Source of the DNA: Rhodococcus sp. HM1
GTDB taxonomy: Bacteria; Actinomycetota; Actinomycetes; Mycobacteriales; Mycobacteriaceae
Assembly (NCBI RefSeq): GCF_023218075.1
Contig: NZ_JALPTB010000069.1
Coordinates: 1 to 33,352 of the forward strand
Reading direction: 5' to 3'
Length of the DNA: 33,352 bases
The position numbers and the translations under genes were made by a program. A model generated the notes under the pieces. The model saw nothing but the letters and a program-made list of their open reading frames with translations, did no database searches and was not told the DNA's origin. Shown here piece after piece: positions 9,920 to 31,319 of this stretch (its first letter is position 1; each line of letters starts with the position of its first letter).

Positions 9920-9958
9920 GGGACCGACGGTGACCGAGCAACTCGAGGAGTGTGTGTA

Positions 9959-11272: not shown

Positions 11273-14200
11273 TTGGCAGTCTCTAGCCAGACCAAGGCAG
11301 TTGCCGGAATCCCCGGAGCCCCGAAGAGAGTCTCGTTCGCGAAGATTCGCGAGCCGCTCGAGGTCCCCGGGCTCCTCGATCTACAGACAGATTCCTTCGA
11401 ATGGTTGATCGGCTCCGAGCGCTGGCGCGCGAAGGCTGCCGAACGTGGTGACGGGCCTGTTGTCGGCGGCCTCGAGGAGATCCTCGCAGAGCTCTCGCCG
11501 ATCGAGGACTTCTCGGGTTCGATGTCCCTGTCCTTCTCCGACCCGCGCTTCGACGAGGTCAAGGCCTCCGTCGAGGAGTGCAAGGACAAGGACATGACGT
11601 ACGCGGCTCCGCTGTTCGTCACGGCCGAGTTCATCAACAACAACACCGGCGAGATCAAGAGCCAGACGGTCTTCATGGGTGACTTCCCGATGATGACCGA
11701 CAAGGGCACCTTCATCATCAACGGCACCGAGCGCGTCGTCGTGTCGCAGCTGGTGCGGTCCCCTGGCGTCTACTTCGACCGGAACGTCGACAAGAGCACC
11801 GAGAAGGACCTGCACAGCGTCAAGGTGATCCCGGGCCGCGGTGCATGGCTCGAGTTCGACGTCGACAAGCGCGACACCGTCGGCGTCCGCATCGACCGCA
11901 AGCGCCGCCAGCCGGTCACCGTGCTGCTCAAGGCCCTGGGCTGGACGAACGAGCAGATCGTCCAGCGCTTCGGTTTCTCCGAGATCATGATGTCCACGCT
12001 GGAGAAGGACAACACGGCCGGCACCGACGAGGCGCTGCTCGACATCTACCGCAAGCTGCGTCCGGGCGAGCCGCCGACCAAGGAGTCCGCGCAGACCCTG
12101 CTGGAGAACCTCTTCTTCAAGGACAAGCGCTACGACCTGGCGCGCGTGGGACGTTACAAGATCAACAAGAAGCTGGGCCTGAACAGCGGCCAGCCGATCG
12201 CGGCGTCCACCCTCACCGAGGAAGACATCGTCGCCACGATCGAGTACCTGGTGCGCCTGCACGCCGGTGAAACCGTGATGACCGCCCCCGACGGCGTCGA
12301 GGTCCCGGTCGAGGTCGACGACATCGACCACTTCGGCAACCGTCGTCTGCGCACGGTCGGCGAGCTCATCCAGAACCAGATCCGTGTCGGCCTGTCCCGC
12401 ATGGAGCGCGTGGTGCGCGAGCGTATGACCACGCAGGACGTCGAGGCGATCACGCCGCAGACGCTGATCAACATCCGTCCCGTCGTGGCCGCGATCAAGG
12501 AGTTCTTCGGAACCTCCCAGCTGTCGCAGTTCATGGACCAGAACAACCCGCTCTCGGGCCTGACCCACAAGCGCCGCCTGTCCGCGCTGGGCCCCGGCGG
12601 TCTGTCCCGTGAGCGCGCCGGCCTCGAGGTCCGCGACGTCCACTCGTCGCACTACGGCCGCATGTGCCCGATCGAGACCCCGGAAGGCCCGAACATCGGC
12701 CTGATCGGCTCGCTGTCGGTGTACGCGCGGGTCAACCCGTTCGGTTTCATCGAGACCCCGTACCGCAAGGTCGAGAACGGCGTCGTCACCGACGAGGTCG
12801 TCTACCTGACCGCCGACGAGGAGGACCGCCACGTCGTGGCGCAGGCCAACTCGCCGATCGGTCCCGACGGCCGGTTCACCGAGGATCGCGTTCTCGTCCG
12901 TAAGAAGGGCGGCGAGATCGAGTACATCCCGGCCGCCGAAGTCGACTTCATGGACGTTTCGCCGCGTCAGATGGTGTCGGTCGCGACCGCGATGATCCCG
13001 TTCCTCGAGCACGACGACGCCAACCGTGCCCTCATGGGTGCGAACATGCAGCGTCAGGCCGTGCCGCTGGTGCGCAGCGAGGCTCCGGTCGTCGGTACCG
13101 GCATGGAACTGCGTGCCGCCGTCGACGCCGGCGACGTCATCGTCACCGAGAAGACCGGTGTGGTCGAGGAGGTGTCCGCCGACTTCATCACCGTGATGGC
13201 CGACGACGGCACCCGCAAGACCTACCGTCTGCGCAAGTTCGACCGTTCCAACCAGGGCACCTGCTCGAACCAGCGTCCGATCGTGGACGAGGGTCAGCGC
13301 GTCGAGGCCGGCCAGGTCCTCGCCGACGGTCCCTGCACCCAGAACGGTGAGATGGCGCTCGGCAAGAACCTGCTCGTGGCGATCATGCCGTGGGAAGGCC
13401 ACAACTACGAGGACGCGATCATCCTGTCGCAGCGCCTCGTGGAGGAGGACGTGCTCACCTCGATCCACATCGAGGAGCACGAGATCGACGCCCGCGACAC
13501 CAAGCTCGGTGCCGAGGAGATCACCCGCGACATCCCGAACGTCTCGGACGAGGTCCTCGCCGACCTGGACGAGCGCGGCATCGTCCGCATCGGTGCCGAG
13601 GTCCGCGACGGCGACATCCTCGTCGGCAAGGTCACCCCGAAGGGTGAGACCGAGCTGACCCCCGAGGAGCGGCTGCTGCGCGCGATCTTCGGCGAGAAGG
13701 CCCGCGAGGTCCGCGACACGTCGCTGAAGGTGCCCCACGGCGAGACCGGCAAGGTCATCGGCGTGCGCGTGTTCTCCCGCGAGGACGACGACGATCTGCC
13801 TCCGGGCGTCAACGAGCTCGTCCGCGTGTACGTGGCGCAGAAGCGCAAGATCCAGGACGGCGACAAGCTCGCCGGCCGCCACGGCAACAAGGGCGTCATC
13901 GGCAAGATCCTCCCGCAGGAGGACATGCCGTTCCTGCCCGACGGCACCCCGGTCGACATCATCCTCAACACCCACGGTGTTCCGCGTCGTATGAACATCG
14001 GCCAGATCCTCGAGACGCATCTCGGCTGGATCGGCAAGGCCGGCTGGAACATTCAGGTCGCGGAGGACGGCAGCCGTCCCGAGTGGGCGCAGAACCTGTC
14101 CGACGAGATGCTGTCGGCGGAGCCGAACACCAACATCGCGACCCCGGTGTTCGACGGTGCGCGCGAGGACGAGCTCAGCGGTCTGCTGGCCTCGACCCTG

Positions 14201-14761
14201 CCGAACCGCGACGGTGAGGTCATGGTCGGTGAGGACGGCAAGGCGACGCTGTTCGACGGTCGTTCCGGCGAGCCGTTCCCGTACCCGGTGTCGGTCGGCT
14301 ACATGTACATCATCAAGCTGCACCACCTCGTCGACGACAAGATCCACGCTCGGTCGACCGGTCCGTACTCGATGATCACCCAGCAGCCGCTCGGCGGTAA
14401 GGCCCAGTTCGGTGGCCAGCGCTTCGGTGAGATGGAGTGCTGGGCCATGCAGGCCTACGGTGCGGCGTACACGCTGCAGGAGCTCCTCACCATCAAGTCG
14501 GACGACGTCGTCGGCCGCGTTAAGGTGTACGAGGCGATCGTCAAGGGCGAGAACATCCCGGAGCCGGGTATCCCCGAGTCCTTCAAGGTTCTCCTGAAGG
14601 AGCTCCAGTCGCTCTGCCTGAACGTCGAGGTGCTCTCGAGCGACGGCGCGGCCATCGCGATGGCCGACGGCGACGACGAGGACCTGGAGCGGGCAGCGGC
14701 CAACCTGGGCATCAACCTTTCCCGCAACGAGTCGGCCACGGTCGACGACCTCGCGAACTAG
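11273..14761 (+). CDS. rpoB: DNA-directed RNA polymerase subunit beta
   Basis: 1162 residues from TTG 11273 (1168 from GTG 11255), close to the usual actinobacterial length. This is the beta subunit of RNA polymerase, which forms much of the catalytic cleft. The N-terminal [20 protein letters not shown] is diagnostic. The rifampicin-binding cluster (12509-12601) is wild type, with Asp at 12536, His at 12566 and Ser at 12581, the positions equivalent to M. tuberculosis D516, H526 and S531. The C-terminal region contains the conserved [18 protein letters not shown]. There is no sign of a second, resistance-type rpoB. It follows the mce operon after a 381-nt gap and is cotranscribed with rpoC. 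Confidence 0.99.
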
Positions 14762-14773
14762 GAAGCCGACCCC

Positions 14774-14855
14774 GGAGGAGGCGCGTATGGACGGCAACGA
14801 CGACGCCGCATCCTTCGCGCCTCCCCGGGGGCCCGGCAGCGATAGCGACAACTAG
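14774..14855 (+). CDS. Possible small ORF between rpoB and rpoC (22 codons, ORF 14787-14855)
   Basis: GGAGGAG at 14774-14780 is a near-perfect ribosome-binding site, 6 nt before ATG 14787. The frame runs 22 codons to TAG 14853-14855. The peptide begins [17 protein letters not shown] and ends in Ser/Asp residues; it is acidic, hydrophilic and matches nothing I recognise. It fills most of the 129-nt gap between rpoB and rpoC and ends 35 nt before rpoC. It could be a translated small protein, a ribosome-loading device for rpoC, or chance. Coordinates include the ribosome-binding site. Confidence 0.35.
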
Positions 14856-14890
14856 CAGCAACACAACCCGCACAGGGGAAAGGAAGTTAC

Positions 14891-18862
<3,972 letters not shown>

Positions 18863-18881
18863 GCAACTACCGTAGACACGC

Positions 18882-18915
18882 AGGTCCCGCCCCTTTCTCT
18901 TCGGGGGCGGGACCT
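18882..18915 (+). terminator. Intrinsic terminator of the rpoBC operon
   Basis: Perfect 12-bp stem: AGGTCCCGCCCC (18882-18893) pairs with GGGGCGGGACCT (18904-18915) around a 10-nt loop (TTTCTCTTCG). It is followed by TCGTGTATT, a weak U-rich tail as is common in high-GC actinobacteria. It lies directly after rpoC. Confidence 0.9.
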
Positions 18916-19247
18916 TCGTGTATTCGGCGTACGGGACGCCGCACCCCATCCGTGGACGGACTCCTGCACGAAGTCTCCTCGGGCGGGCCGTACCGCGATG
19001 ACGACTCTTTCGATTCGATTGTGCTGCAACAGATTCCGATCCTGGATCGCAGGCACTGCCTGCGCCGCTCGCAGGCCCCGGCTTCGGGCCCGGCGGCGAG
19101 ATCCCGGAACGTAAATCCCGAGATGGTCGAAATTTAGATTATCAACCCCGATGAGTGAGTTCCGGATCGACAACTTCGAGCCCATAGACAGTTTCTTTGA
19201 CTGGAACCGCATATTTGTAAACGAATACGGCCCCCATCGGGTATTAA
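18916..19247. other. Gap after rpoC without a convincing gene
   Basis: No frame here has a credible ribosome-binding site together with recognisable protein sequence. The one structured element is a near-perfect palindrome, GCAGGCA-C-TGCCTGC, at 19049-19063. Base composition becomes less GC-rich from about 19130 onward than in the flanking genes. Confidence 0.6.
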
Positions 19248-19277
19248 TTGTGCTATGCGGAACGCCCGTGCTAGCCT
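19248..19277 (+). promoter_or_regulatory. Predicted promoter of the carrier-protein gene cluster
   Basis: TTGTGC (19248-19253) and TAGCCT (19272-19277) are separated by 18 nt, the same geometry as the other promoters read in this window. Transcription would start near 19284 and give an unusually long leader of about 335 nt before the first cluster gene. Confidence 0.45.
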
Positions 19278-19345
19278 GTGAAAGTCGATCGGGAGGGGTC
19301 GGCGAAATTCGATACACCTTGGGGGCACGGTGACTTATCGCATTC

Positions 19346-19361
19346 AGCTGCTCGAGCAGCT
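19346..19361. repeat. Perfect 16-bp palindrome in the cluster leader
   Basis: AGCTGCTCGAGCAGCT is a perfect dyad about 60 nt downstream of the predicted transcription start. It could be an operator or an RNA hairpin. A second, shorter dyad, TCGACG-TT-CGTCGA, lies at 19410-19423. Confidence 0.6.
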
Positions 19362-19557
19362 TTCGGTTTCGACATCAGGCCGGTCCGCGAATTCCCGCGG
19401 ATCGGTTTCTCGACGTTCGTCGAATTCTCGCTTTTCGTAATTCGAGTTATTTCTGAAGTTTCGATCGACGCGGTATCGGCCGGCTCGCGTGACGTGTGTG
19501 GCCGGCGGAAAACGATGCGTCGGCATATCTCGAAACGAACTGCACATTCTCTGTCTG

Positions 19558-19579
19558 CCGCACTGTAATTGCAGTGCGG
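19558..19579. promoter_or_regulatory. Inverted repeat just upstream of the first cluster gene
   Basis: CCGCACTG (19558-19565) and CAGTGCGG (19572-19579) form a perfect 8-bp dyad with a 6-nt AT-rich spacer. It ends 26 nt before the AAGGAG ribosome-binding site (19606-19611). The size and AT centre fit a homodimeric repressor operator; as RNA it would form a stable hairpin. Its function is not shown by the sequence. Confidence 0.5.
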
Positions 19580-19618
19580 TATCGAATCCTGCGCGGATGA
19601 AAAATAAGGAGAAGTTGT

Positions 19619-20707
19619 ATGCGTGTCGTCGTCGTGGGCGCCGGATATGCGGGAACGATTGCCGCGAATCGGCTGGCGAAGAAGGTTCCCGATGCCGAGA
19701 TCACCATTGTGAACGATCGTCCGGAGTTCGTGGAGCGGGTTCGCCTGCACCAGCAGACCGCCGGCACCGGTGGCGCCGCGACGCCACTGTCGTCGATGCT
19801 GCGCAAGGGGATTGCGTTCCGTCTCGGAAGCGCCGTGAAGATCGGGGGCAACCAGGTCGTCCTCGCCGACGGCGAGCAGCTGGGATTCGACTACGCCGTC
19901 ATTGCCACCGGCGGATCGGTCCATCCGATTCCCGGGTCGATTCCTGTCGGGACCTGGGAAGGTGCCCGTATCGCGGAAGCGCGGCTCGCGGGTCTGCAGG
20001 ACGGCGGCGACGCCGTTGTCGTCGGTGGGGGACTGACGGGCATCGAAACCGCGTCCGAGATCGCACGTTCCCGCAAGGGGCTGAAGGTGCGGCTCGTCGC
20101 CGACGAGTTCGCGGCAGGCCTGTCCGAGGGCGCTCGCCGAAAGGTGCGGAAGTCGCTGGAGAAGGCCGGTGTCGAAATCCTGGCGGACCGGATCGTCGGC
20201 ATCTCCCAGGGGCAGGGGCGTGACGTCGTTCGTCTCGCATCGGGTTCCGCGTTCGAGACGGACGTGACGTTGTGGGCCGTGATCTCCGGTGTGTCGGACT
20301 TCGTGGCGCAGAGTGGCCTCGCCGTAGACGAACGGGGCCGGGCGCTGGTCGATCGGTTCCTGCGGAGCGAGGGATCGCCCAACGTCTTCGTCGTGGGGGA
20401 CTGTGCGGCAGTTCCCGGCGCACGTCCGTCCTGTGCGACGGCATCACCGCAAGGCGCGCACACGGCCGACAATCTGCAGCGGATCTCCCGCGGGAAGGAT
20501 CTCGCGCCGTACTCGATGGGTTACGTCGGCCAGGCTGTCGGCCTGGGTGGGATGAATGCACTCATGCAGCTGGTGCGATCCGACGACAGCCCACGGAATC
20601 TGTATTTCTCCGGATTCTTCGCAGGCGTGACGAAGGAGATCGTCAGCCGGTACGCGAAATTCGGATCACGAACCGCAATCTATGTATGGAGAAAGGGTCG
20701 AATTTGA
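19619..20707 (+). CDS. NAD(P)/FAD-dependent oxidoreductase (NDH-2/FSP1-like)
   Basis: A 362-residue flavoprotein of the pyridine-nucleotide disulfide oxidoreductase fold. It has an N-terminal FAD-binding GAGYAG (residues 7-12), a central NAD(P)H-binding GGGLTGIE (136-143), and the C-terminal FAD-contacting VVGDCA (Asp 261). It has no redox-active CxxxxC pair, so it is not a disulfide reductase; it resembles the NADH:quinone-oxidoreductase and FSP1-like group. It lacks an obvious long C-terminal membrane anchor. The ATG at 19619 has a strong AAGGAG 7 nt upstream. It overlaps the next gene as TTGA. In this context it may oxidise or reduce a carrier-bound acyl group or a quinone-like cofactor; the substrate is unknown. 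Confidence 0.85.
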   Translation: MRVVVVGAGYAGTIAANRLAKKVPDAEITIVNDRPEFVERVRLHQQTAGTGGAATPLSSMLRKGIAFRLGSAVKIGGNQVVLADGEQLGFDYAVIATGGSVHPIPGSIPVGTWEGARIAEARLAGLQDGGDAVVVGGGLTGIETASEIARSRKGLKVRLVADEFAAGLSEGARRKVRKSLEKAGVEILADRIVGISQGQGRDVVRLASGSAFETDVTLWAVISGVSDFVAQSGLAVDERGRALVDRFLRSEGSPNVFVVGDCAAVPGARPSCATASPQGAHTADNLQRISRGKDLAPYSMGYVGQAVGLGGMNALMQLVRSDDSPRNLYFSGFFAGVTKEIVSRYAKFGSRTAIYVWRKGRI

Positions 20708-20991
20708 GTGGGGGTCTCATCACTGTCGGCCACCTGGAGGATCGGATAAGGGAGCGTCTGGGGGACGTCGTTCCGGACGAATTCGAGATCACGGCGGAAA
20801 CGCGACTGGACGACCTGGGTTTGACGAGCCTGCAGTTCGGCGACCTTCTCATGGAATTGGAGGACGAACTCGGCTCGGACTTCGACCTCTATCTGGTCGC
20901 CGATGTCGTCACGGTCGGCGAACTCGCCGACCTTCTCGAACAGCAGGCACCCCGGTGGTCTGCGACGGAACAGGCAAGGGAAGTCACCTAA
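20704..20991 (+). CDS. Acyl carrier protein
   Basis: A 95-residue acidic carrier protein. LDDLGLTSLQFGDLLMELED contains the 4'-phosphopantetheine attachment site, Ser42, in the usual D-x-G-x-x-S-L setting. The length and four-helix pattern fit a free-standing ACP that tethers an acyl intermediate as a thioester. The TTG start at 20704 overlaps the previous stop (TTGA) and has AAAGG at 20692-20696 correctly placed. The ATG at 20686 has no ribosome-binding site. The stop TAA is immediately followed by the next start. It is probably loaded by the neighbouring ligase and is not the fatty-acid-synthesis ACP. Confidence 0.9.
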   Translation: MSGGLITVGHLEDRIRERLGDVVPDEFEITAETRLDDLGLTSLQFGDLLMELEDELGSDFDLYLVADVVTVGELADLLEQQAPRWSATEQAREVT

Positions 20992-22680
20992 TTGAATCCG
21001 CGAAACGAAGCGCCGGACAATTTCTGGACGCGAATATTTGTCACCGCAACCGATTATCGGACCGGTCTGAATTTCTGGGAGGGGCGCCAATATGCGCCCT
21101 ATTCGCGCGCGGATCTCGTCGCCGAGGCAAGGAGGGTGGCGGGAGAACTCGCCTCGGACGGGGTTCGGAAGGGCGACGTCGTGGCCATCGTGCTCGACAA
21201 CTCCGCCGCCGCCGTGAGGTCGCTGCTGGGCTGCTGGTATCTGGGCGCCGCCGTTGCGTCCCTACCCGAACGGGTGGTCGGCACCGACGCCGAAAGCTAC
21301 TGCACCCAGATCGAATCCATCGTCGATCGGATCCGTCCGCCCCTCCTTCTCTGCAGCGACCGGGCGCTTGCGGACATCCGGCAGTCGGCCGGCGTGGCGT
21401 CGGTGGTGCGCAGCTTCGAGGCTCTGGGATCGGAGCAGGTCGCAATCGCATCGGAACCGGACTTTCCCGGTCTCCACGACCCGGCGTTCATCCAGTTCTC
21501 GTCCGGGAGCACCGGCAATCCGAAGGGCTGCGTGCTCAGTGCTTCGGCCATCGCACACCAGCTGGACATGATCGCCGAGATGGTCGACTTCGGGCCCGGC
21601 ACGGTCGGTGTGAACTGGGCGCCGTTCTCGCACGACATGGGGTTCTTCGGCGGTCTGATGAGCGGACTGTGGAACGACGGCGAGGGCTACTACTCGACGA
21701 CGGCACGATTCCGCTTGTCGCCCCGCACCTGGCTGGAAGATCTCGCCCACTATCGCGCGACGTACACCTCGGCATCGCCGACGGCTCTGCACGTCGCAGC
21801 AAAGGTCATGCACATCCGGAAGAAGCCGTTGCCGGGCGACCTCGCTTCCCTCAGGTGCCTCATGGTGGGCGCGGAACGGATCAGCTGGGAGGTCGTGGCC
21901 GACGTACAGGAATGCCTGGGTCCGTACGGGCTCCGGGCGGACGCGGTACGGCCCGCGTACGGCCTCGCGGAAGGAACGCTGGTGGTGACCGCGTCCGCGA
22001 ACGATCGCGAACCCGGATACTGCAGTGTCGACGCGCTCGAGCTGGCGGAGGGACACGTCCGGTTCGTGCCCGAGAGCGACGAGAACTCGTGCCGGATCGT
22101 CAGCTGTGGGGTGCCGCTGCCGGGTGTCGAGCTGGACGTGCCGGAAGGGGCCGGCCGATTGGCGTCGATCAGGTTCCGTTCGCCGTCGGCGGCGACGGGT
22201 TACTACTCGAACCGGGAAGCCACGGCCGCCCGCTTCGGTGCCGACGGATTCGTCGACACCGGTGATCTGGGTTTCGTGCACGGCGGTGAGCTGTACCCGG
22301 TCGGCCGCGCGGACGATCTGATCTGTATCGGCGGGCGCAACGTGTACGTGAACGCCATCGAGTCGGAGATCGAGGCCACGATCGAAGGACTGCGCAGCGG
22401 AAGCACCGCGCTGATCGACTCGACACCCCACGCCGGCGATCGCACGCTGGTCTACATCGCCGAGGTGGGCGGGACGAACATCGACGGCGCCGGTATCGCG
22501 CGCGAGATCGCACACACGTGCAGGCGCAGAAGCGCGCTCGTCCTGGACAGGGTCGTCCTGGTTCCGCGGCGCACGTTGCCCCGCACGCCGTCCGGCAAGA
22601 TTCAGCGGCACAAGTGCCGATCGATCGTCGAGCATTCCGGCGGCGCGCACCAGATCATCGAATCCATCAGCGTTCGCTGA
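20992..22680 (+). CDS. Fatty acyl-AMP ligase-like (FAAL) acyl-ACP ligase
   Basis: A 562-residue adenylate-forming enzyme. The ATP-binding loop FSSGSTGNPKG is at residues 169-179, HDMG at 214-217, YGLAEGT at 323-329, TGDLG at 423-427 and the catalytic Lys at 536 (TPSGKIQ). HDMG, the YGLAE motif and GRADDLICIGGRNVY are features of fatty acyl-AMP ligases, which pass acyl-adenylates to carrier proteins rather than to CoA. The gene begins with TTG directly after the ACP stop, with AAGGGA upstream. Inferred role: activating a carboxylic acid and loading the adjacent ACP. Whether the FAAL-specific insertion is present would need an alignment, so a CoA ligase is not fully excluded. Confidence 0.85.
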   Translation: MNPRNEAPDNFWTRIFVTATDYRTGLNFWEGRQYAPYSRADLVAEARRVAGELASDGVRKGDVVAIVLDNSAAAVRSLLGCWYLGAAVASLPERVVGTDAESYCTQIESIVDRIRPPLLLCSDRALADIRQSAGVASVVRSFEALGSEQVAIASEPDFPGLHDPAFIQFSSGSTGNPKGCVLSASAIAHQLDMIAEMVDFGPGTVGVNWAPFSHDMGFFGGLMSGLWNDGEGYYSTTARFRLSPRTWLEDLAHYRATYTSASPTALHVAAKVMHIRKKPLPGDLASLRCLMVGAERISWEVVADVQECLGPYGLRADAVRPAYGLAEGTLVVTASANDREPGYCSVDALELAEGHVRFVPESDENSCRIVSCGVPLPGVELDVPEGAGRLASIRFRSPSAATGYYSNREATAARFGADGFVDTGDLGFVHGGELYPVGRADDLICIGGRNVYVNAIESEIEATIEGLRSGSTALIDSTPHAGDRTLVYIAEVGGTNIDGAGIAREIAHTCRRRSALVLDRVVLVPRRTLPRTPSGKIQRHKCRSIVEHSGGAHQIIESISVR

Positions 22681-22699
22681 TTGCCCCCCCTCTGTTTCA

Positions 22700-22723
22700 C
22701 CCGCGCGCGATGGGGCGCGCGGG
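22700..22723 (+). terminator. Strong hairpin between the two ligase genes
   Basis: CCCGCGCGC (22700-22708) pairs perfectly with GCGCGCGGG (22715-22723) around a 6-nt loop. There is no U-tract. It could be a partial terminator, an RNA-processing or stability element, or a barrier that lowers expression of the downstream genes. It sits in the only sizeable gap (80 nt) inside the first half of the cluster. Confidence 0.45.
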
Positions 22724-22760
22724 CATCCTCTGTGATCTAGAGCGAAAGTGGTTGTTACAC

Positions 22761-24365
22761 ATGCTCAAGCGACCCAAGAACTTGGGATTGATGTTCGAAT
22801 GGCATGCGGGCAGGTCGAGGCAGCTGACCGTCCATCTCGATCGTCCACTCGATATCGAAGGTCCGGACGGGCCGCTCTTCTACAACGGCCGGGCGCTCGC
22901 CGACCTCGTCGCGGAAGCCTCGGGCTGGCTCCGCGCCGCGGGGGTCGGCCGCGGCGACCACGTGGCGGTCGTGAAACCGAATCATTTCGACATGATCGTG
23001 CTGGCAGCGGCCGCGGCCCGGATCGGCGCGGTCGCAGCGCTCGTGTCCGCCGCGGACACGCCGCACCACCATGCCGCACTGCTCGATCGGATTCGGCCGG
23101 TCGTCTCGATCATCTCGTCGGACGTCCTCGAACGAGCCGCATCCGCCGGGCTGGACCTGCGAGGACACGGCACGACGATCGTGCTCGGGCGCGACGCGGA
23201 TCCCGCCCGCGCCGACGAACTGGACCTGAAGTCGCTACGGGGAAAGCCCGTTCCGAAGCCCGACCCCGCCCCCGACGACGCGCCGATGTTCATCACCCAC
23301 ACGTCCGGCACGACCGGGGTGCCGAAGCTGGTCGTCCACTCCGCGACGTCCAACCACTACGCGAGCAGGCTCGAGCTGACGCCGTTCCCCGTGATCGTCA
23401 ATCGCCGGTCGGACACGACCCTGGTATCGATTTCGTTCGCCCACTCCCGCTCGCTCGCATGGATCGGTGCGCAACTCAAATGGGCTCCGGCGAAGGTCGT
23501 CGTGGCGAGCCGGTACGAACCCGAATCCGTGGAGAAGGTGTTCGAGCAGCATCTGCCCACGACCGTCGAGGCCACACCGAACGTCTACCAGCGGTGGAAG
23601 GTCCTGGCGGAGAGGCGGCCCGAGCTGTTCGCTCACGTGCGGTTCTACCTCAACACCTTCGACCTGATGCACCCGTCGACCGTCCGGACGTTCCTGAACG
23701 CGTCCAGCCGGCGTCTTCCCGTCTGGGCGCAGTCGTGGGGTCAGAGCGAGGTGGGCCCGATCGCAGGTGCGCTGTATACGCGGGCGATGGTCCGCCGGCG
23801 GGGTGTCGCCTCGACGAACAACGTCGGGTGGTCGGTGCCCTGGCTCATCCGGACCCGGGTCGTCGACCCGGAAACGGGAGAACCGGTGAGGCGCGGGCGG
23901 ACCGGAATACTCATGTCGCGCAGTCGATCCCGTTGCATCGACTATCTCGGCGAGACGGACCGGCACGAACTGAAGTCCGCCGGGGAATGGTGGAACACCG
24001 GCGATCTCGGATACAAGGATCTGCTGGGCCGGGTCAGGTTCGTGGATCGCGCGGTCGACGAGATTCCCGGGCTGAGCGGCACCGAACTCGAAAGTATCCT
24101 GCTCGACCGCATTCCCAACGCGATCGAGGTGATCGTGCTGGGGGTCTCGGGAAGTGCGCCGCTGCCCGTGCTGAGCCTGGACGGGGGCTCGATCAGCGAC
24201 GCGGAATGGCGGGCGGCGACGAAGGGCCTGCCTGCGATGGCCGATCCGGTGGTGATCGCGTGGGAGGACCTCCCGCGGACCTCGACCTGGAAGGTTCGCC
24301 GCGGCGCACTCCGGCGGTCGCTGGTGGGGACCGAGCTCGGTGACGGAGTGAGCACGTGGACCTAG
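22761..24365 (+). CDS. Second adenylate-forming ligase (ANL superfamily)
   Basis: A 534-residue AMP-binding enzyme, clearly different from the FAAL. It has HTSGTTGVPK at residues 180-189, WGQSEVG at 326-332 (Glu330), WNTGDLGY around Asp415, and a probable catalytic Lys511 in RTSTWKVRR, where the usual P-x-G-K is not kept. The N-terminal AMP-binding and C-terminal lid domains are both present. The acid it activates and the final acceptor (CoA, the ACP or an amine) are not evident. The start is uncertain: ATG 22761 is preferred. A GTG/ATG further upstream would lie in or before the hairpin at 22700-22723, and ATG 22791 is also possible. Its end overlaps the next gene by 10 nt. Confidence 0.82.
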   Translation: MLKRPKNLGLMFEWHAGRSRQLTVHLDRPLDIEGPDGPLFYNGRALADLVAEASGWLRAAGVGRGDHVAVVKPNHFDMIVLAAAAARIGAVAALVSAADTPHHHAALLDRIRPVVSIISSDVLERAASAGLDLRGHGTTIVLGRDADPARADELDLKSLRGKPVPKPDPAPDDAPMFITHTSGTTGVPKLVVHSATSNHYASRLELTPFPVIVNRRSDTTLVSISFAHSRSLAWIGAQLKWAPAKVVVASRYEPESVEKVFEQHLPTTVEATPNVYQRWKVLAERRPELFAHVRFYLNTFDLMHPSTVRTFLNASSRRLPVWAQSWGQSEVGPIAGALYTRAMVRRRGVASTNNVGWSVPWLIRTRVVDPETGEPVRRGRTGILMSRSRSRCIDYLGETDRHELKSAGEWWNTGDLGYKDLLGRVRFVDRAVDEIPGLSGTELESILLDRIPNAIEVIVLGVSGSAPLPVLSLDGGSISDAEWRAATKGLPAMADPVVIAWEDLPRTSTWKVRRGALRRSLVGTELGDGVSTWT

Positions 24366-25276
24366 AGGCAACCGCGAGGGACGGCCTCGTCGACGAGGTG
24401 TTCGCGGTTTTCGAAGGTGAGCTCCGGGAGGTCCTGCGCACCGTTCCCTACAACAGTGCGGCGCAGTTCGTCGACCTCTTCGGCGACGGGGAACGCAGTC
24501 CGCGGCTCGGAGCGGCGTGCGTGTTCCAGACGCTGGAGGTCGCGAGGCGGGTCGAGGAACGCACGGGTATTCCTGCTCGTCTGATACCGGACGGCCGGCA
24601 CCTGGCAGCGATCTTCGAGTACGAGGGCGGACTCGTCCTGCTCGATCCCTACCTGCTGCACACGACTCCGATCCACATCGAGGCACGTACTGTACGCGCG
24701 GGGTCGGGGCGGGTGGTCTCGACCGCGGCTCCTGTGCGCACGGACTCCAGGGGAGTGGTCCGGCCGGGACGGCTCACCGCGCGCTACCGGACCTACGGCG
24801 ACGGCTGGGTCGTTCGCCTGGAGTATTCGAAGTTCAGCCCCACCCGGGGCAGATATCTGCTGTCCAGGCTGTTCACGTTGCGCTCGGAGGACGCATTCGA
24901 CCGGCCCGACGGCGGGCTTCGGGTCGAGGCGCTGCCGCGGGAGTTCCTGGCGTCGATCCTGACCGATCCCGAGCAGACCAGCCTGTCCATCCGGGCGCTG
25001 GACGATTCGCTGGAACACACCTGTGAGGTCATCCTTCCGTTGCACGGCTATGCAGGGCGGATCTTCTCGGCCGGCGACCTCTGGCTGCGGGACAGCGCGG
25101 GGGTGTCCTTCCCGCACTCGGATCCGGCCGCAGCGCCGGTGTGGAACGAACTGGCCGCCTCGACGGGGCTCGGTTCCGCCGACATCGTCGATCACCTGCT
25201 GTGCGCCGCCGACATCTATCGGAGCGTCGCCGATCCCGACGGCGACGTCCAACCCTATTCGTTCGAGAGTGAGTGA
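24356..25276 (+). CDS. Probable arylamine N-acetyltransferase-like (Cys-His-Asp) acyltransferase
   Basis: A 306-residue protein I recognise only by pattern. Cys55 (RLGAACVFQTLEV), His82 (DGRHLAAIFEYEG) and Asp97 (LVLLDPYLL) have the order and approximate context of the Cys-His-Asp triad in arylamine N-acetyltransferases and transglutaminase-like folds. The His-Asp spacing of 15 equals that of classical NATs, while the Cys-His spacing is shorter than usual. NAT relatives in antibiotic pathways, such as RifF, release a carrier-bound acyl chain by forming an amide. By analogy this enzyme could transfer the acyl group from the ACP to an amine. The GTG start has GGAG 7 nt upstream and overlaps the ligase gene by 10 nt, showing coupling. 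Confidence 0.55.
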   Translation: MDLEATARDGLVDEVFAVFEGELREVLRTVPYNSAAQFVDLFGDGERSPRLGAACVFQTLEVARRVEERTGIPARLIPDGRHLAAIFEYEGGLVLLDPYLLHTTPIHIEARTVRAGSGRVVSTAAPVRTDSRGVVRPGRLTARYRTYGDGWVVRLEYSKFSPTRGRYLLSRLFTLRSEDAFDRPDGGLRVEALPREFLASILTDPEQTSLSIRALDDSLEHTCEVILPLHGYAGRIFSAGDLWLRDSAGVSFPHSDPAAAPVWNELAASTGLGSADIVDHLLCAADIYRSVADPDGDVQPYSFESE

Positions 25277-25278
25277 CG

Positions 25279-25776
25279 ATGAGCAAGTTTCGGACGGTGT
25301 TCGTCGCCGGCACCATGCAGGGCGCGACTCCGGGCTTCGCGATCCGGGATCAGGGCTATCGAGACGAAATCGGTGACATCCTGCGTGCCTACAATCCCGA
25401 CATCGAGTGCTTCGACCCGCACCAGGCGATGCAGAGTTTCATCGCGTCGATCGGGATGCCGTTGGCCGTCGGCTATCAGAAGCTCGCCGAGACGGAGGTC
25501 GTCGACGAGGCGGAGCTCGACAGCGAAGTGGGTCTGCTGCGGGAGAAGTTCCGGGAATTGACGGCCTACGCGGCCGAGTGCGATCTGTTGGTCGCATTCC
25601 TGCCTGGGGGTGTACCGAGCATGGGTACCGCGATGGAGATGTATGCCGCGCACTGCGGTGGCAGCGTCGTCGCCAGCATCACCGAGATGCGGCAGAACCT
25701 GGCGGTGCTGTCCACCTCCGAGGTGATCGTTCCCGACCTTCCCGCGTTCGAGAGCTGGCTCGCGACGAAGGGCTGA
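25279..25776 (+). CDS. Nucleoside 2-deoxyribosyltransferase-like protein
   Basis: A 165-residue protein of a Rossmann-like fold. The N-terminal VFVAGTMQG, then CDLLVAFLPGG, then PSMGTAMEMYAAH with Glu120 match the family pattern of nucleoside 2-deoxyribosyltransferases and nucleotide N-glycosidases (S-x-G-T-x-x-E-x-x-x-A). Glu is the catalytic nucleophile in that family. Members such as MilB and BlsM hydrolyse CMP in nucleoside-antibiotic pathways; others act in salvage. The reaction here, exchange or hydrolysis, cannot be told. The start could be ATG 25279 or GTG 25273, which overlaps the previous stop as GTGA. Its place in the cluster suggests a nucleoside- or ribose-derived building block. 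Confidence 0.65.
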   Translation: MSKFRTVFVAGTMQGATPGFAIRDQGYRDEIGDILRAYNPDIECFDPHQAMQSFIASIGMPLAVGYQKLAETEVVDEAELDSEVGLLREKFRELTAYAAECDLLVAFLPGGVPSMGTAMEMYAAHCGGSVVASITEMRQNLAVLSTSEVIVPDLPAFESWLATKG

Positions 25777-25833
25777 GCCGGTGGGCAATGCAGTGTGGGG
25801 CGAAGCGAACGATTCCGTGAGGCAGGGACCCGA

Positions 25834-28092
25834 GTGATCAAGATGGCAACGCGCACTGCAATCGCCGCGCCGCGGCTGCTCCTGGGCATCTGGATCGCCG
25901 TGGTGGCGATGTTGGGTGTGTTCGGCGCCGGGGTGGCCTCGCACCTCGGCGCGGGAGGGTTCGTCGCTCCGACCGCCGAATCCTCCGTTGCTGCACAGCA
26001 ACTCGAAGAAGTCTTCGACCGCGGCGGGATGACACTGGTCTTTTCGGTGAAGGCCCGGGACGGGGCGGATTCGCCGACGGCCCGCGCTGCCGGTACCCGG
26101 ATCGCGGAGGATCTCGCCGGTGATCCGAGGGTGACATCGGTCGTGTCGCTCTGGGGCAACCCCGAACTGGCGATCGCGTTGCGCAGTACCGACGGCTCGA
26201 CGGGATTGGTGGTCGCCGGTGTGCGGGGCGGTGACAACGACGGTGCCGCCAACTCGCGGGCGCTCGCGGACGAGTACGGCGGTTCCACCGGGGACGTGGA
26301 GATCGATGTCGCGGGCGAGGGGATGGTCTACGACTGGATGTCCACCCAGTTGGAGAAGGACCTGCTGCTCGCGGAGTCGATCGCCGTGCCGATCACGTTC
26401 GTCGTGCTGGTGTTCGTGTTCGGCAGTGTGGTGTCGGCGTTGATCCCGGTCGCGGTCGGGGTGGCGACGATCGTCGCCACGGCAGGCATCCTCAGGGCGA
26501 TCACACTCGTGACCGATGTGTCGATCTTCGCGCTCAACCTCGCCGCATCGTTGAGCCTGGCACTCGCGATCGACTACAGCCTGCTCATCGTCAACCGGTA
26601 CAGACACGAACGTGCCGCCGGATTCGGCAGTGCCGACGCCTTGGTCCGGACGATGAGCACGGCCGGACGGACGGTGCTGTTCTCGGGTCTGATCGTCGGG
26701 CTCAGCCTGTCCGCCATGGCCCTGTTCCCGCTGTACTTCATGCGGTCCTTCGCGTACGCCGGCGTCGCCGTGGTCGCCTTCGCCGTTCTGGTGACGATGA
26801 CCGTCACCCCGGCGATCGTGTCCGTCCTCGGTGATCGCCTGGAGATGTTCGCGGTGCGGAAGAGCGCACGGCGGGCCGCCGCCGAACGGCCCGTCGAGCG
26901 GTCGGGGTGGTACCGGCTCACGCACCGCGTGATGCGGAACTCGGCGGTGGTGGCTGCGTCGCTCGTCGTGTTGCTTCTCGCCGTCGGCGCGCCGATCCTC
27001 GGAATCGACCTCGGGTATCCCGACGAACGGGTCCTGTCGGAGGATGCGCCGCCGCGGCGGGCCGCAGAGCAACTGAGCGCGGACTTCGCCCAGAGTGCTC
27101 TCGCGCAGACGCAGATCGTTCTGCCCGAAGGGGCGTCCGTGCGGTCGGAGCTGAACACCTATGCCTCAGGCCTGTCCTCGGTCGACGGGGTCGCGGCGGT
27201 ACTGGCGCCGGAGGGCACCTACGTCGGCGGGGTCAGGGTTGCGAACGGCGATCCCGGTGCCGTCGCGGGCCGGGCGGCGATGCTGACGATCGCCACCTCG
27301 TCCGACGCCCGGGACGACCTCGCGACGATGCTGGCCGATCTGCGCGCGGTGCCGGCTCCCGCCGAGACGCTGTTCCACAGCAAGGAGCAGCACGACCGGG
27401 ATGCGGTCGACGGGATCATGGGCACACTCCCGTGGGCGCTCGGTCTGATCGCGCTGACGACGTTGTGTGTCCTGTTCGTGCTCACCGGGAGCGTCCTGCT
27501 TCCGATCAAGGCACTCGTGATGAACCTGCTCTCGCTCTCGGCGGTGTTCGGGTTCCTCGTCTGGGTCTTCCAGGACGGCCACCTGGGCGGTCTGGGTGCC
27601 ACGGGCACCGGCTTCCTGGTCGCCATCGTCCCCGTCCTGATGTTCTGCGTCGCGTTCGGGTTGTCGATGGACTACGAGGTCTTCCTCCTCGATCGGATCA
27701 GGGAGTTCTGGGTGGATTCGGACCGCACCCGCCGATCCAACGAGGAGGCGGTGGCGCGCGGGCTCGCCCACACCGGCCGGGTGGTCACGGCCGCGGCATT
27801 GCTCATGGCGATCGTCTTCGCCGCGCTCGGCACGTCGTCGGTGGCGTTGATGCGCATGTTCGGGGTCGGGATGGCGCTCGCGGTCGTCCTGGACGCCACG
27901 GTGGTCCGGGTTCTGCTGGTGCCGTCGTTCATGAAGCTGATGGGGCGGCTCAACTGGTGGGCGCCGGCGCCGCTCGCACGGTTCCACGCGAAGATCCAGG
28001 GCCGGAGCCGCCCGGAGAGCAACGACCCCGGCACCGGTATGTCGGGGGGCGCGGCGTCGAGTGGTGACGAGGCTGTGGCGAAGGTGCCCTGA
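25834..28092 (+). CDS. MMPL/RND-family transporter
   Basis: A 752-residue membrane protein with the 12-TM, two-halves architecture of MMPL/RND exporters. There is an N-terminal TM, an extracytoplasmic loop, a block of five TMs, then a repeat of the same plan. The proton-relay Asp-Tyr pairs are present in both halves: IDYSLLI (D247-Y248) and MDYEVFLL (D613-Y614). The family exports lipids and lipid-linked metabolites in mycolate-containing bacteria. As the last gene of the cluster it probably exports the product. The start GTG 25834 has AGGGA 5 nt upstream; the frame is open back to 25795, without better support. Its stop lies 22 nt from the convergent sixA-like stop. Confidence 0.9.
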   Translation: MIKMATRTAIAAPRLLLGIWIAVVAMLGVFGAGVASHLGAGGFVAPTAESSVAAQQLEEVFDRGGMTLVFSVKARDGADSPTARAAGTRIAEDLAGDPRVTSVVSLWGNPELAIALRSTDGSTGLVVAGVRGGDNDGAANSRALADEYGGSTGDVEIDVAGEGMVYDWMSTQLEKDLLLAESIAVPITFVVLVFVFGSVVSALIPVAVGVATIVATAGILRAITLVTDVSIFALNLAASLSLALAIDYSLLIVNRYRHERAAGFGSADALVRTMSTAGRTVLFSGLIVGLSLSAMALFPLYFMRSFAYAGVAVVAFAVLVTMTVTPAIVSVLGDRLEMFAVRKSARRAAAERPVERSGWYRLTHRVMRNSAVVAASLVVLLLAVGAPILGIDLGYPDERVLSEDAPPRRAAEQLSADFAQSALAQTQIVLPEGASVRSELNTYASGLSSVDGVAAVLAPEGTYVGGVRVANGDPGAVAGRAAMLTIATSSDARDDLATMLADLRAVPAPAETLFHSKEQHDRDAVDGIMGTLPWALGLIALTTLCVLFVLTGSVLLPIKALVMNLLSLSAVFGFLVWVFQDGHLGGLGATGTGFLVAIVPVLMFCVAFGLSMDYEVFLLDRIREFWVDSDRTRRSNEEAVARGLAHTGRVVTAAALLMAIVFAALGTSSVALMRMFGVGMALAVVLDATVVRVLLVPSFMKLMGRLNWWAPAPLARFHAKIQGRSRPESNDPGTGMSGGAASSGDEAVAKVP

Positions 28093-28118
28093 CGGACGGG
28101 TTTCCGGGCGGACGTCAG
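28089..28118. terminator. Inverted repeat between convergent genes
   Basis: CTGACG (28089-28094) pairs with CGTCAG (28113-28118), and an inner CGG/CCG can also pair. It spans the stop codons of both the MMPL gene and the opposing phosphatase gene. The stem is short and has no U-tract on either side, so a bidirectional terminator role is only possible. Confidence 0.3.
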
Positions 28119-28606
28119 CGGGGGATGTGGAAGTCCGTGAGCTCGGCGCGGCCGGCCTCGAGTTCGTGCCAGGCTCCGCGGACCGTCAGCACCACGACGG
28201 CGGACGTGGGGAACTTCTCGGCGAGCTGGTGGGCGGCCTCGCTCTCGTGATCGGGGGCGAGCAACAGTGCCGTCCGCGACAGCGTCGGCTCGTGGCCGAC
28301 GACGAGGAGGGTCGCCACGTCGTCGTCGACAGTGCGGACGGCGTCGATGAGGATGTCCGGGGTCGTTTCGTAGAGATCGTCCCGGAAGTCGACCGGCGCT
28401 TCGATCGCAGCTTCGGTCAGCGTCCTGCGGGTGCGCACCGCCGTGGAGCACAGCACTGCGTCGATCGGCGGCTGGTGTGCCCGGAGCCACCGGCCGGCGA
28501 GTCCGGCTTCACGTCGCCCGCGCGGGGCCAGCGGACGCTCGTGGTCGGCGACGCCTTCCGGGTATGCGGACTTGCCGTGTCGCAGCAGGATGAGGGTGCG
28601 CGTCAT
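28115..28606 (-). CDS. SixA-like histidine phosphatase
   Basis: A 163-residue protein of the histidine-phosphatase (phosphoglycerate mutase-like) superfamily. The N-terminal LILLRHGKS holds the catalytic RHG (residues 9-11), and VVGHEPTLS provides the second catalytic His. Length and motifs match SixA, which removes phosphate from phosphohistidine proteins; actinobacterial relatives have mixed or unknown substrates. Its ATG overlaps the thioesterase stop as ATGA on the minus strand (28606-28603), so the two are coupled. The frame is open far upstream, but that is a shadow of the thioesterase gene. Confidence 0.88.
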   Translation of the reverse strand: MTRTLILLRHGKSAYPEGVADHERPLAPRGRREAGLAGRWLRAHQPPIDAVLCSTAVRTRRTLTEAAIEAPVDFRDDLYETTPDILIDAVRTVDDDVATLLVVGHEPTLSRTALLLAPDHESEAAHQLAEKFPTSAVVVLTVRGAWHELEAGRAELTDFHIPR

Positions 28607-29469
28607 GCGTCCCACCGTAGGTGTTCCGACCCATTGCCGGACGGAGTGGCGATGCCGGATTTGCCGGGTGTCGGCACCTTCGTGACCGTCGCCCGCGCGA
28701 CCCTGGCGACGGCCCGGACCTCGTCGCCGACGGTGAACCACAGGGAGAGCGCGTCGTCCTCGTGGCGGGTGCGGATGGTCAGCTCGTCGCCGGCGACGAC
28801 GGGCCGCAGGTGCTCGACCACCGCCCGGTACGGGCCGTCCTGCAGGTCGCTGCGCTCGGCGAGGTGTTCCTCGACGCCGTGCCAGTAGGTCGCGTTGTTG
28901 ACGTGGTCGAACGGGTCGATGTCGGTGACACGCAGTGGAAACGGCGCGGCGTGGTCGGTGCCGTCGGCGTCGGGGGAGAGCCATGCGCGCCACCGGAGCC
29001 GCGTGTCGTGGGCGTGCCGCGCCATGCGCTCGAACAGGGGATCGCTGATGCGGGTGGGGGCGCCGCTGGTCGGGCTGATGTCGATCCAGAATCCCGCGGT
29101 GTCGATCAGGGCTCCTTCGCCGTCGGGTTCGATCTCGTCCATCCGCACCCGGATGTTGGCCCATCGCGTCGACAGTGCGTCGCACCACCGGCGCAGCCGC
29201 AGGTGTTGCGGGTACCGCGCGGGACGGTGCACGTCGATGACGGTGCGCCGGACGATCCAGAGGGGATCGGTGCCGGTCGCGTCGAGGGCGGCGAGGTTGT
29301 CGGTGCCGATGTCCTGGAGATAGCGGGCGATGCCGTCGAGCCGTAGCCGCTGGTTGTTGTCGACGTCGCCGGTGCGGACGGTGCGTTCCGTGGTGTAGGG
29401 CGACGCGTCCGCGGGTAGATCGCTGAGCGGTTGTGTCGCCGACGGTGTGGCAGTCGTGTCGGTCCCCAT
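28603..29469 (-). CDS. Acyl-ACP thioesterase (FatA/FatB-like, tandem hotdog)
   Basis: A 288-residue protein with two hotdog domains. The first contains TVRTGDVDNNQRLRLDGIAR and the second DPFDHVNNATYWHGVEEHL, where the Asn and His correspond to active-site positions in the FatA/FatB family. Such enzymes release free fatty acids from acyl-ACP in the cytoplasm. It is transcribed divergently from fprB, with 167 nt between, and is the first gene of a two-gene unit with the phosphatase. It faces the carrier-protein cluster, but nothing shows that it serves it; housekeeping lipid turnover is as likely. Confidence 0.87.
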   Translation of the reverse strand: MGTDTTATPSATQPLSDLPADASPYTTERTVRTGDVDNNQRLRLDGIARYLQDIGTDNLAALDATGTDPLWIVRRTVIDVHRPARYPQHLRLRRWCDALSTRWANIRVRMDEIEPDGEGALIDTAGFWIDISPTSGAPTRISDPLFERMARHAHDTRLRWRAWLSPDADGTDHAAPFPLRVTDIDPFDHVNNATYWHGVEEHLAERSDLQDGPYRAVVEHLRPVVAGDELTIRTRHEDDALSLWFTVGDEVRAVARVARATVTKVPTPGKSGIATPSGNGSEHLRWDA

Positions 29470-29535
29470 CCGCAGCCCCCTTGCGTTCGTGGATCGCCCG
29501 ATTCTCGCAGGAGCGGACGTCGTGTGCAGTGTGTC

Positions 29536-29568
29536 TTGCGGTGTTCGTGGCGAGGCGACTACAGTCGC
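29536..29568 (+). promoter_or_regulatory. Predicted fprB promoter with an overlapping dyad
   Basis: TTGCGG (29536-29541) and TACAGT (29560-29565) are separated by 18 nt, giving a start near 29572. The -10 is embedded in a perfect inverted repeat, GCGACT-AC-AGTCGC (29555-29568), so a dimeric regulator binding there would block the promoter. Confidence 0.5.
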
Positions 29569-29636
29569 ATTTAACTGTTACGCAGTGTCACATGAAATGC
29601 GGCGGCCCGGCCGCCCGGCTCCCGAGGACCCAGACC

Positions 29637-31319
29637 ATGGCCTACGTGATCACCCAGACGTGCTGCAACGACGCGAGCTGCGTGGCCGTCTGCCCGGTCA
29701 ACTGCATCCACCCGACCCCCGAGGAACGGGAATTCGCGACCGCCGAGATGCTGCACATCGACCCGCAGACCTGCATCGACTGCGGTGCCTGCGCCGACGC
29801 GTGCCCGGTCGAGGCGATCTTCCCCGAGGACACCCTGACCCCGGAGCGGGCCCGGTTCGCCGAACTGAACGCCGCCTACTACGCCGCGCACCCGACGCCC
29901 GACGGCTGGCTTCCGCTCACACCCACCCCGGCGCCGCCGCGCGATCGCGGCACGTTGCGGGTTGCGATCGTCGGTGCGGGGCCCGCCGCCTGCTATGCCG
30001 CGCAGGAGCTGCTCGAACGCTCCGACGTCGAGGTCGAGATGTTCGACCGGCTGCCGACTCCTTTCGGTCTCGTCCGCGCCGGCGTCGCACCGGATCATCC
30101 CGGCACCAAGACGGTCACCGAGTCGTTCGAGCGGTCGTTCCGGCGTGACGCGTTCGGACTGCACCTCGACGTCGAGATCGGCCGCGACCTCTCCCACGCC
30201 GATCTGCTCGCCCACCACCACGCCGTGATCTACGCCGTCGGTGCCTCCGCCGACCGGCACCTCGGCATCCCCGGCGAGGACCTCCCCGGTAGCCACGCCG
30301 CCACCGAATTCGTCGGGTGGTACAACGGGCACCCCGACTACGCGGACCGCACCTTCGACCTCAGCGGAACCACCGCGGTGATCGTCGGCAACGGCAACGT
30401 GGCGCTCGACGTCGCCCGGATCCTCACGACGGACGTCGACGAGCTGGCCCGCACCGACATCGCCGATCACGCGCTGGAGGCCCTGCGCCGCAGCGCCATC
30501 CGGGAGGTCGTGCTCCTCGGCCGGCGGGGTCCGGCCCAGGCGGCCTACAGCAACCCCGAGTTCCTGGCGCTGCGCGATCTGCACGGCGTCGACGTCGTCG
30601 TCGACGAGTCGGAGCTGGAACTCGATCCGGTCAGCGCACGGCTCGCCGCCGCCGATCCCGCCGTCGAGCTGCGCATGCGTCTCGCGCGCGAGTACGCGCA
30701 GACCCAGCCGATCCCCTGGCGCAAGCGCATCGTCTTCCGGTACCTGACCTCGCCCACCGAACTGCTCGGCGACGACCGCGTCACCGGTGTCCGGCTCGTA
30801 CGCAACGAGCTGATCGAAGGGGAGAACGGCACGCTCGTGGCCCGGCCCGCCGGCGACCACGAGGATCTGCCTGCGCAGCTGGTGCTGCGGTCGATCGGGT
30901 ACCGGGGCGTGCCGGTGCCCGGCGTGCCGTTCGACGAGCGTCGCGGCGTCGTCCCGAACACCGGCGGCCGCGTCGAGAACGGCGTGTACGTCACCGGATG
31001 GATCAAACGTGGCCCGAGCGGGGTCATCGGCACCAACAAGGCCTGTGCGAAGGAGACGGTCGCGGCACTGCTCGCAGACTTCGACGCCGGCCGGTTGACC
31101 GCACCGGCCGCGGGACGTCGCGAGCTGACGCGCCTGCTCGCCTCGCGCCGCCCGAACCGGGTGGATCTGCGGGGCTGGCAAGCGATCGACGAGGCCGAGC
31201 GCGCCGCCGGCCGGGCGCAGGGCCGCCCGCGGGTCAAGATCACCGATCGCGCCCGGCTCGTCGAGATCGGCGCCCGTCGCGGACCGGCCCGGCTGTTCCG
31301 TCGCCTGGTCCCGATGTGA
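29637..31319 (+). CDS. fprB: Ferredoxin/ferredoxin-NADP(+) reductase FprB
   Basis: A 560-residue fusion. The N-terminal ferredoxin has CCNDASCVAVCPVNC (Cys 9-23) and CIDCGACADACP (Cys 46-56), enough for one [3Fe-4S] or [4Fe-4S] cluster plus one [4Fe-4S] cluster. It is followed by an adrenodoxin-reductase-like flavoprotein, with the FAD site VGAGPAAC near residue 113 and a second dinucleotide site VGNGNVALDVAR. Known role of the family: NADPH-dependent electron supply to cytochromes P450 and other ferredoxin users. The ATG at 29637 has GAGGA at 29624-29628 (spacing 8). The frame upstream of it is not coding. Confidence 0.95.
   Translation: MAYVITQTCCNDASCVAVCPVNCIHPTPEEREFATAEMLHIDPQTCIDCGACADACPVEAIFPEDTLTPERARFAELNAAYYAAHPTPDGWLPLTPTPAPPRDRGTLRVAIVGAGPAACYAAQELLERSDVEVEMFDRLPTPFGLVRAGVAPDHPGTKTVTESFERSFRRDAFGLHLDVEIGRDLSHADLLAHHHAVIYAVGASADRHLGIPGEDLPGSHAATEFVGWYNGHPDYADRTFDLSGTTAVIVGNGNVALDVARILTTDVDELARTDIADHALEALRRSAIREVVLLGRRGPAQAAYSNPEFLALRDLHGVDVVVDESELELDPVSARLAAADPAVELRMRLAREYAQTQPIPWRKRIVFRYLTSPTELLGDDRVTGVRLVRNELIEGENGTLVARPAGDHEDLPAQLVLRSIGYRGVPVPGVPFDERRGVVPNTGGRVENGVYVTGWIKRGPSGVIGTNKACAKETVAALLADFDAGRLTAPAAGRRELTRLLASRRPNRVDLRGWQAIDEAERAAGRAQGRPRVKITDRARLVEIGARRGPARLFRRLVPM

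Follow-up and report, generated by a model that had tools for sequence, protein, structure and literature searches.

What do seven consecutive genes of Rhodococcus sp. HM1 make, and is their combination shared by other bacteria? They lie in a stretch of 33,352 nucleotides (the window) that was analysed as a whole, and the original prediction saw in them a cluster making a small acylated, perhaps nucleoside-linked, metabolite on one carrier protein. Our results lead us to predict that the island holding these genes is a member of a widespread cassette, whose core is formed by a fatty acyl-AMP ligase (FAAL), an acyl carrier protein (ACP), an amide synthase with the arylamine N-acetyltransferase (NAT) fold and a phosphoribosyl N-glycosidase resembling nucleoside deoxyribosyltransferases (NDT). 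The cassette is undescribed as far as we searched. The original prediction had recognised no characterised pathway, and no NAT-NDT-FAAL set turned up in the literature searched, most subscription journals and MIBiG being outside the reach of that search. We know of no product for the core cassette.

All seven genes were confirmed in the window, co-directional and on the plus strand:

19619-20707, +, gene 1, FAD/NAD(P)H oxidoreductase (Pyr_redox_2, 2.3e-37)
20686-20991, +, gene 2, free-standing ACP (PP-binding, 2.3e-9; ATG at 20686)
20992-22680, +, gene 3, FAAL (AMP-binding, 6e-47; TTG start)
22761-24365, +, gene 4, second ANL (adenylate-forming) ligase (AMP-binding, 6.2e-42)
24356-25276, +, gene 5, NAT-like protein (predicted fold)
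25273-25776, +, gene 6, NDT-like protein with the NDT/MilB/DNPH1 fold, predicted N-glycosidase (predicted fold)
25795-28092 from the earliest possible start, +, gene 7, MMPL-family exporter (PF03176, 5.2e-65)

From gene 1 to gene 7 the junctions are a 22-bp overlap, an abutting pair, an 80-bp gap between the FAAL and the second ligase, overlaps of 10 and 4 bp and an 18-bp gap, so that the predicted run of mostly overlapping or abutting genes was borne out with this single wider gap. Pfam supports genes 1, 2, 3, 4 and 7. Genes 5 and 6 gave zero Pfam or NCBIfam matches at E values up to 0.1; their earlier assignment as NAT-like and NDT-like is now backed by predicted folds.

The core and its surroundings in relatives

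When named genomes were scanned with one NAT sequence alone nothing was found, and an alignment of NAT sequences found 19 loci. Two new loci from a set of 394 genomes, five from two further families and the window itself bring the number to 27, with six repeats (L030, L031, L033-L035 and L067, of L004, L006, L007, L016, L019 and L009), recognised by the length of the contig or by having the same gene map, and a broken fragment in G586 excluded. The NAT and NDT genes are neighbours in 27 of the 27 loci, window counted, an adjacency far beyond chance; as every locus was found via NAT, the result is that NAT comes with NDT. The NDT of L008 was matched over its second half only, and the NAT of L066 is split. 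A full-length FAAL is present in 25 of the 27 loci, L066 having a partial ligase and L015 none in a contig that covers only 2.7 kb upstream. An ACP, either free or fused to a ketosynthase (KS), occurs in 24 (in L001 as a 53-residue match), while L008, L015 and L066 showed none. The named hosts belong to seven actinobacterial families, plus one metagenome-assembled genome of Proteobacteria, and among the matches listed the NAT and NDT proteins are mostly annotated as hypothetical. Within the set of 394 genomes, all from one other family and each with six candidates scored for NAT, the gene was found in eight, one of which has the fragment only (G586); the seven genomes with a full-length NAT are also those with a full-length NDT. 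Of the two further families, one has the NAT gene in three genomes of 300 and the other in five of 297.

Not all of the seven genes travel together in conserved order. The NAT-NDT-FAAL-ACP core recurs, as does the second ligase in all 12 loci of the window's clade, this ligase not being the best match in the other 15. The FAD oxidoreductase found zero matches in 19 other loci, an MMPL gene lies near the core in four of 26 relatives (L003, L018, L019 and L062, in L062 on the other strand), and the order of FAAL and ACP relative to the NAT-NDT pair differs among loci. Based on neighbouring genes, mostly assigned through similarity to one Pfam-scanned representative, four architectures can be told apart:

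Type A, 12 loci including the window: second ligase-NAT-NDT with FAAL; ACP in 11 of the 12
Type B, 5 loci: flavin monooxygenase-NAT-NDT
Type C, 6 loci: in five, NAT-NDT, then FAAL, a KS-ACP fusion, an LLM-class oxidoreductase and a polyketide synthase (PKS); L066 placed here on NAT similarity only
Type D, 4 loci: NAT-NDT-FAAL-ACP beside a nonribosomal peptide synthetase (NRPS) and P450 (L016), a desaturase (L017) or SbnB/SbnA-type genes (L018, L019)

The NAT tree supports types A (100/100), C (100/99) and D (88/83), and type B is not a single group. The NDT tree, in which the branch of the window's NDT is long, broadly agrees (A 100/99, C 90/91, D 92/77). A DoxX-like gene is present in 11 type A loci, the window being the sole exception, and between NDT and FAAL a methyltransferase gene was found in L065 of type C. 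In L018 both SbnB and SbnA score above their equivalog cut-offs, and those of L019 were assigned by similarity. In these two loci the 2,3-diaminopropionate-type SbnB/SbnA genes and the MMPL exporter lie before NAT-NDT-FAAL-ACP. PKS, NRPS, ketosynthase III or P450 genes border the core in some relatives; the description of the cluster as free of NRPS and PKS therefore holds for the window and not for the family.

The FAAL and ACP are reminiscent of the lipoinitiation modules of ramoplanin, enduracidin and friulimicin, which consist of a FAAL and an ACP, with or without two acyl-CoA dehydrogenases. Seven type A relatives (L002, L004-L007, L029 and L032) also carry two acyl-CoA dehydrogenase-type genes, identified by Pfam for L002 and by similarity elsewhere. 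Unlike those antibiotic clusters, neither these seven loci nor the window's seven genes contain an NRPS match, and ligase-NAT-NDT is found instead.

Predicted activities of the core proteins

Among solved structures, FAALs head the matches of gene 3 (3kxw, 1e-46; 3pbk, 5e-44), ahead of CoA ligases, and we predict that it is a FAAL loading the abutting ACP, whose phosphopantetheine site was assigned by motif to GLTSLQ. Gene 4 is acyl/benzoyl-CoA-ligase-like, its nearest relatives being CoA ligases, FadD5 and benzoate-CoA ligase among them. Gene 1 is closest to FSP1/AIFM2 and NDH-2-type oxidoreductases (7xpi, 3.4e-21; FSP1 entries; YjlD, 3.5e-18). The exporter encoded by gene 7 is MmpL3-like (NF052608, 333 bits against a cut-off of 1400).

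The predicted structure of gene 5 supports an arylamine-N-acetyltransferase/amide-synthase fold, which was found by VIA-align and not by Foldseek alone, at 9-18% identity across the structural alignments. A Cys-His-Asp triad (C55, H82 and D97) is unchanged throughout the 29 sequences aligned. We predict a NAT-fold acyltransferase, a putative amide synthase. It differs from arylamine N-acetyltransferases and from ansamycin amide synthases such as GdmF and RifF not only in this low identity: PF00797 does not match the window protein at E up to 0.1, nor does it match anything in the genome at E up to 0.001, and the family is paired with an NDT-like gene in every locus, mostly together with FAAL and ACP.

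For gene 6, the predicted structure has the nucleoside-deoxyribosyltransferase/nucleotide N-glycosidase fold. The window protein stays below the PF05014 cut-off (12.8 against 28.8 bits; E 0.14), and 18 of 19 family members match this model at E up to 1, the best at 1.8e-4. In an alignment of the window with 18 loci, assembled apart from L008 and the later-found loci, F10, S116, G118 and E122 are invariant in all 19 rows, E122 being the catalytic Glu of the GTxxE motif. In MilB, Ser97 and Gly99 touch the 5'-phosphate, selection of ribose rests with F17 and stacking on the base with Phe22, F-L-x-x-P-F is the pyrimidine-ring recognition motif of CMP N-glycosidases, and the substrate complex carries a mutation of E103 (PMC4081090). 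In DNPH1, the counterpart of E103 is the nucleophile E104 and a Tyr occupies the ribose-selecting position (PMC10603095). Our 19 rows keep the Ser, Gly and Glu with MilB spacing and, by motif, a Phe at the F17 position, in which they resemble MilB and not DNPH1. The recognition motif is replaced by F-[VLI]-A-G-[TLIV]-[MI]-Q: the Phe22 position is Met or Ile in all 19 rows and Phe in none, and Arg23 is Gln. Because Ser, Gly, Glu and Phe are kept and Phe22 is lost, we infer that the substrate is probably a 5'-phosphoribosyl compound with a leaving group other than a pyrimidine. The family also stands apart from MilB/BlsM and DNPH1 in its coupling to acyl-ACP genes.

The loss of the stacking Phe bears on an alternative modelled on amicetin, in which AmiF, AmiL and AmiI provide a NAT, a CoA ligase and a nucleotide hydrolase within one pathway, a set that the cassette resembles. 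The NDT-like enzyme would then act like MilB and BlsM and free a nucleobase (cytosine or adenine, for instance) from a 5'-nucleotide, after which NAT would acylate the base to give an acylated nucleobase. We consider this unlikely, as the pyrimidine-stacking residue is missing from every row and four loci carry a PurF gene for which such a pathway would have no need. From the amicetin set the cassette also differs in its ACP-based acyl donor.

Alternatively, gene 6 may be a transferase after whose action a (phospho)ribosyl group stays attached to the nitrogen of the amide, yielding an N-ribosyl amide, which is nearer to the nucleoside-linked product of the original prediction. True transferases exist in this fold family, and the conserved residues cannot separate hydrolase from transferase. 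On the other hand, MilB and DNPH1, both with Ser in the phosphate site, are described as hydrolases (PMC4081090, PMC10603095), and we regard the transferase as improbable. Taken with the PurF genes of four loci, the NDT-like residues suggest cleavage of a phosphoribosyl intermediate and not a product that contains a nucleoside. A close NDT relative (P0127) was also seen outside Actinobacteria, in Variovorax gossypii.

Cluster-borne PurF and a possible phosphoribosylamine route

A gene of the PurF type, whose enzymes form phosphoribosylamine, lies between NDT and FAAL in L009, L013 and L062 (type B) and in L064 (type C). The catalytic Cys motif and the phosphoribosyl pyrophosphate loop are conserved in all four copies, and the L009 copy, the only one scored, passes the TIGR01134 purF equivalog (382.5 against 350 bits). 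Among 19 genomes searched, a set outside which the genomes of L012, L062 and L064 fall, only the L009 and L013 genomes had a second full-length PurF. Close to the core, genes for LOG-type phosphoribohydrolases occur in L001 (above the TIGR00730 cut-off) and L003 (by similarity). Upstream of the PurF-bearing cluster of L062, at 14075-15796 on the minus strand, a gene resembles the beta subunit of N,N-dimethylformamidase (PF20254, 1.5e-82), which places a relative of an amide-cleaving enzyme close to a pathway predicted to form amides.

The first intermediate on the way to purines is the unstable 5-phosphoribosylamine (PRA), and its acylation offers the simplest scheme that uses the NDT residues, the PurF genes and the LOG-type genes together. 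First, judged by homology, a carboxylic acid would be adenylated by the FAAL and loaded on the ACP. The acyl group would then move to the invariant Cys of NAT and onto the amine of PRA or a close phosphoribosyl amine, which would give an N-acyl phosphoribosylamine. PRA could come from the housekeeping PurF in the window's host and from the cluster-borne PurF in some relatives. The NDT-like enzyme, with Glu as nucleophile and Ser and Gly binding the phosphate, would cut the N-ribosyl bond, releasing a primary amide and ribose 5-phosphate. Finally, the amide of the window, perhaps further acylated via the second ligase, would leave through the MmpL protein. We put the probability of this reading at about 40%. 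That PRA thereby serves as an ammonia carrier in specialised metabolism, by a route from acyl-ACP over NAT acylation and a dedicated phosphoribosyl N-glycosidase to primary amides that would stand beside the glutamine amidotransferases, is a proposal that we make tentatively and with some doubt.

Several points weigh against the PRA scheme. PurF is found in just four of the 27 loci, all 12 members of the window's clade being without it, and the four copies group with support under the usual threshold and on long branches. The acceptor of NAT is not visible in the sequence, the second ligase is without a clear place, and an amide leaves less readily than a nucleobase. In relatives with PKS or NRPS genes the chain loaded by the FAAL should be elongated, and therefore NAT may act elsewhere in those pathways; in L016 there is, in addition, a thioesterase domain for release. 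As a whole, the NDT family (3369 of 7997 candidate proteins at E up to 1e-8) is far bigger than the NAT matches seen, so that NDT need not always have NAT, and G679 and G779 (two NDT pieces each) and G543 (one piece) are without a NAT match among the six candidates scored per genome.

Antibiotic clusters commonly duplicate their target, and it may be that the cluster PurF is a self-resistance copy of an inhibited enzyme, that NAT acylates an ordinary amine and that the NDT-like protein has another role, perhaps in salvage. The SbnA/SbnB-type genes of L018 and, by similarity, L019 would be a possible source of such an amine. However, when the cluster PurF of L009 is compared with the other full-length PurF encoded in its host genome, and with the one in the genome of L013, identity is only 44%, and the four cluster copies form one group (92/90) apart from ten housekeeping PurFs, including those of the L009 and L013 hosts. 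Two of 12 housekeeping rows (L071 and L073) did not fit the motif filter and were dropped, and the PurFs of the L062 and L064 hosts were outside the sample. As the cluster copies group apart from the housekeeping ones, the tree argues against a recent self-resistance duplication, though its branches are long. Together with the presence of NDT beside NAT in each locus, this makes self-resistance quite unlikely in our view.

Hydroxamate pathways (actinonin and matlystatin) and the lydiamycin pathway were also considered and set aside. A term search of PMC5719088 gave no mention of ribosyl, arylamine, acetyltransferase, amidotransferase or FAAL, and one of glutamine; in PMC12130866 it gave none for these six terms, glutamine included.

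The genomic site and the meaning of the cassette

The island sits behind the rpoC gene, and its surroundings are as follows:

4271-9229, +, four Mce/MlaD genes upstream of rpoB
14891-18862, rpoC, identified by its position behind rpoB
18870-18927, +, inverted repeat behind rpoC, terminator-like by shape (24-bp arms, 88% complementary, 10-nt loop)
18920-28105, strand not assigned, island of about 9.2 kb with all seven genes inside, missing from relatives

All 18 same-genus genomes, among them that of the window, have the rpoC 3'-end DNA, and 16 loci from the 17 relatives were compared at the island site. The island is absent in all 15 that show both flanks, which are 10-1252 bp apart; in the 16th the contig stops at the site. 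In the relatives, similarity ends on the left (rpoC) flank at 18915-18933, so that the island begins near the downstream edge of the inverted repeat, and resumes on the right at 28104-28122. The two closest relatives (left flank 97% identical) have 44 and 46 bp at the site. With so little DNA between the flanks of these 15 loci, the pattern is most simply explained by a gain of about 9.2 kb in the window's lineage. The NAT gene was likewise found in one of 18 same-genus genomes, one of 101 relatives and one of 396 genomes of the phylum (six candidates per genome scored), always the window's own genome. As L039 and L040 hold a different stretch of about 1.1-1.25 kb downstream of rpoC, this site may take up DNA repeatedly. 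No direct repeats were found inside either edge region, each edge being scanned by itself, and plasmid records matched neither NAT nor NDT. Nothing reached Rfam gathering scores over 18800-28300, and the promoter/terminator scan gave a count not above chance.

Between the Mce/MlaD genes and rpoB there is a weak DUF6459-like protein (9950-10891). Past the right edge of the island lies an acyl-ACP thioesterase-like gene (28603-29469, minus strand; PF01643, 2.3e-13), and several same-genus relatives have DNA resembling parts of it at the island site. At 29433-31319 on the plus strand, one protein fuses an FdxA-like ferredoxin to a GltD-like flavoprotein reductase.

Pairs of NAT and NDT proteins, below Pfam cut-offs in the window, thus mark a recurring biosynthetic cassette, and together they provide a two-gene signature for mining actinobacterial genomes. 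Genome mining keyed on NRPS and PKS may miss the cassette where it stands alone, as in the window. If the phosphoribosylamine reading is true, amides of secondary metabolism would be formed with the help of primary purine metabolism, and the route would represent a sugar-based means of installing nitrogen.

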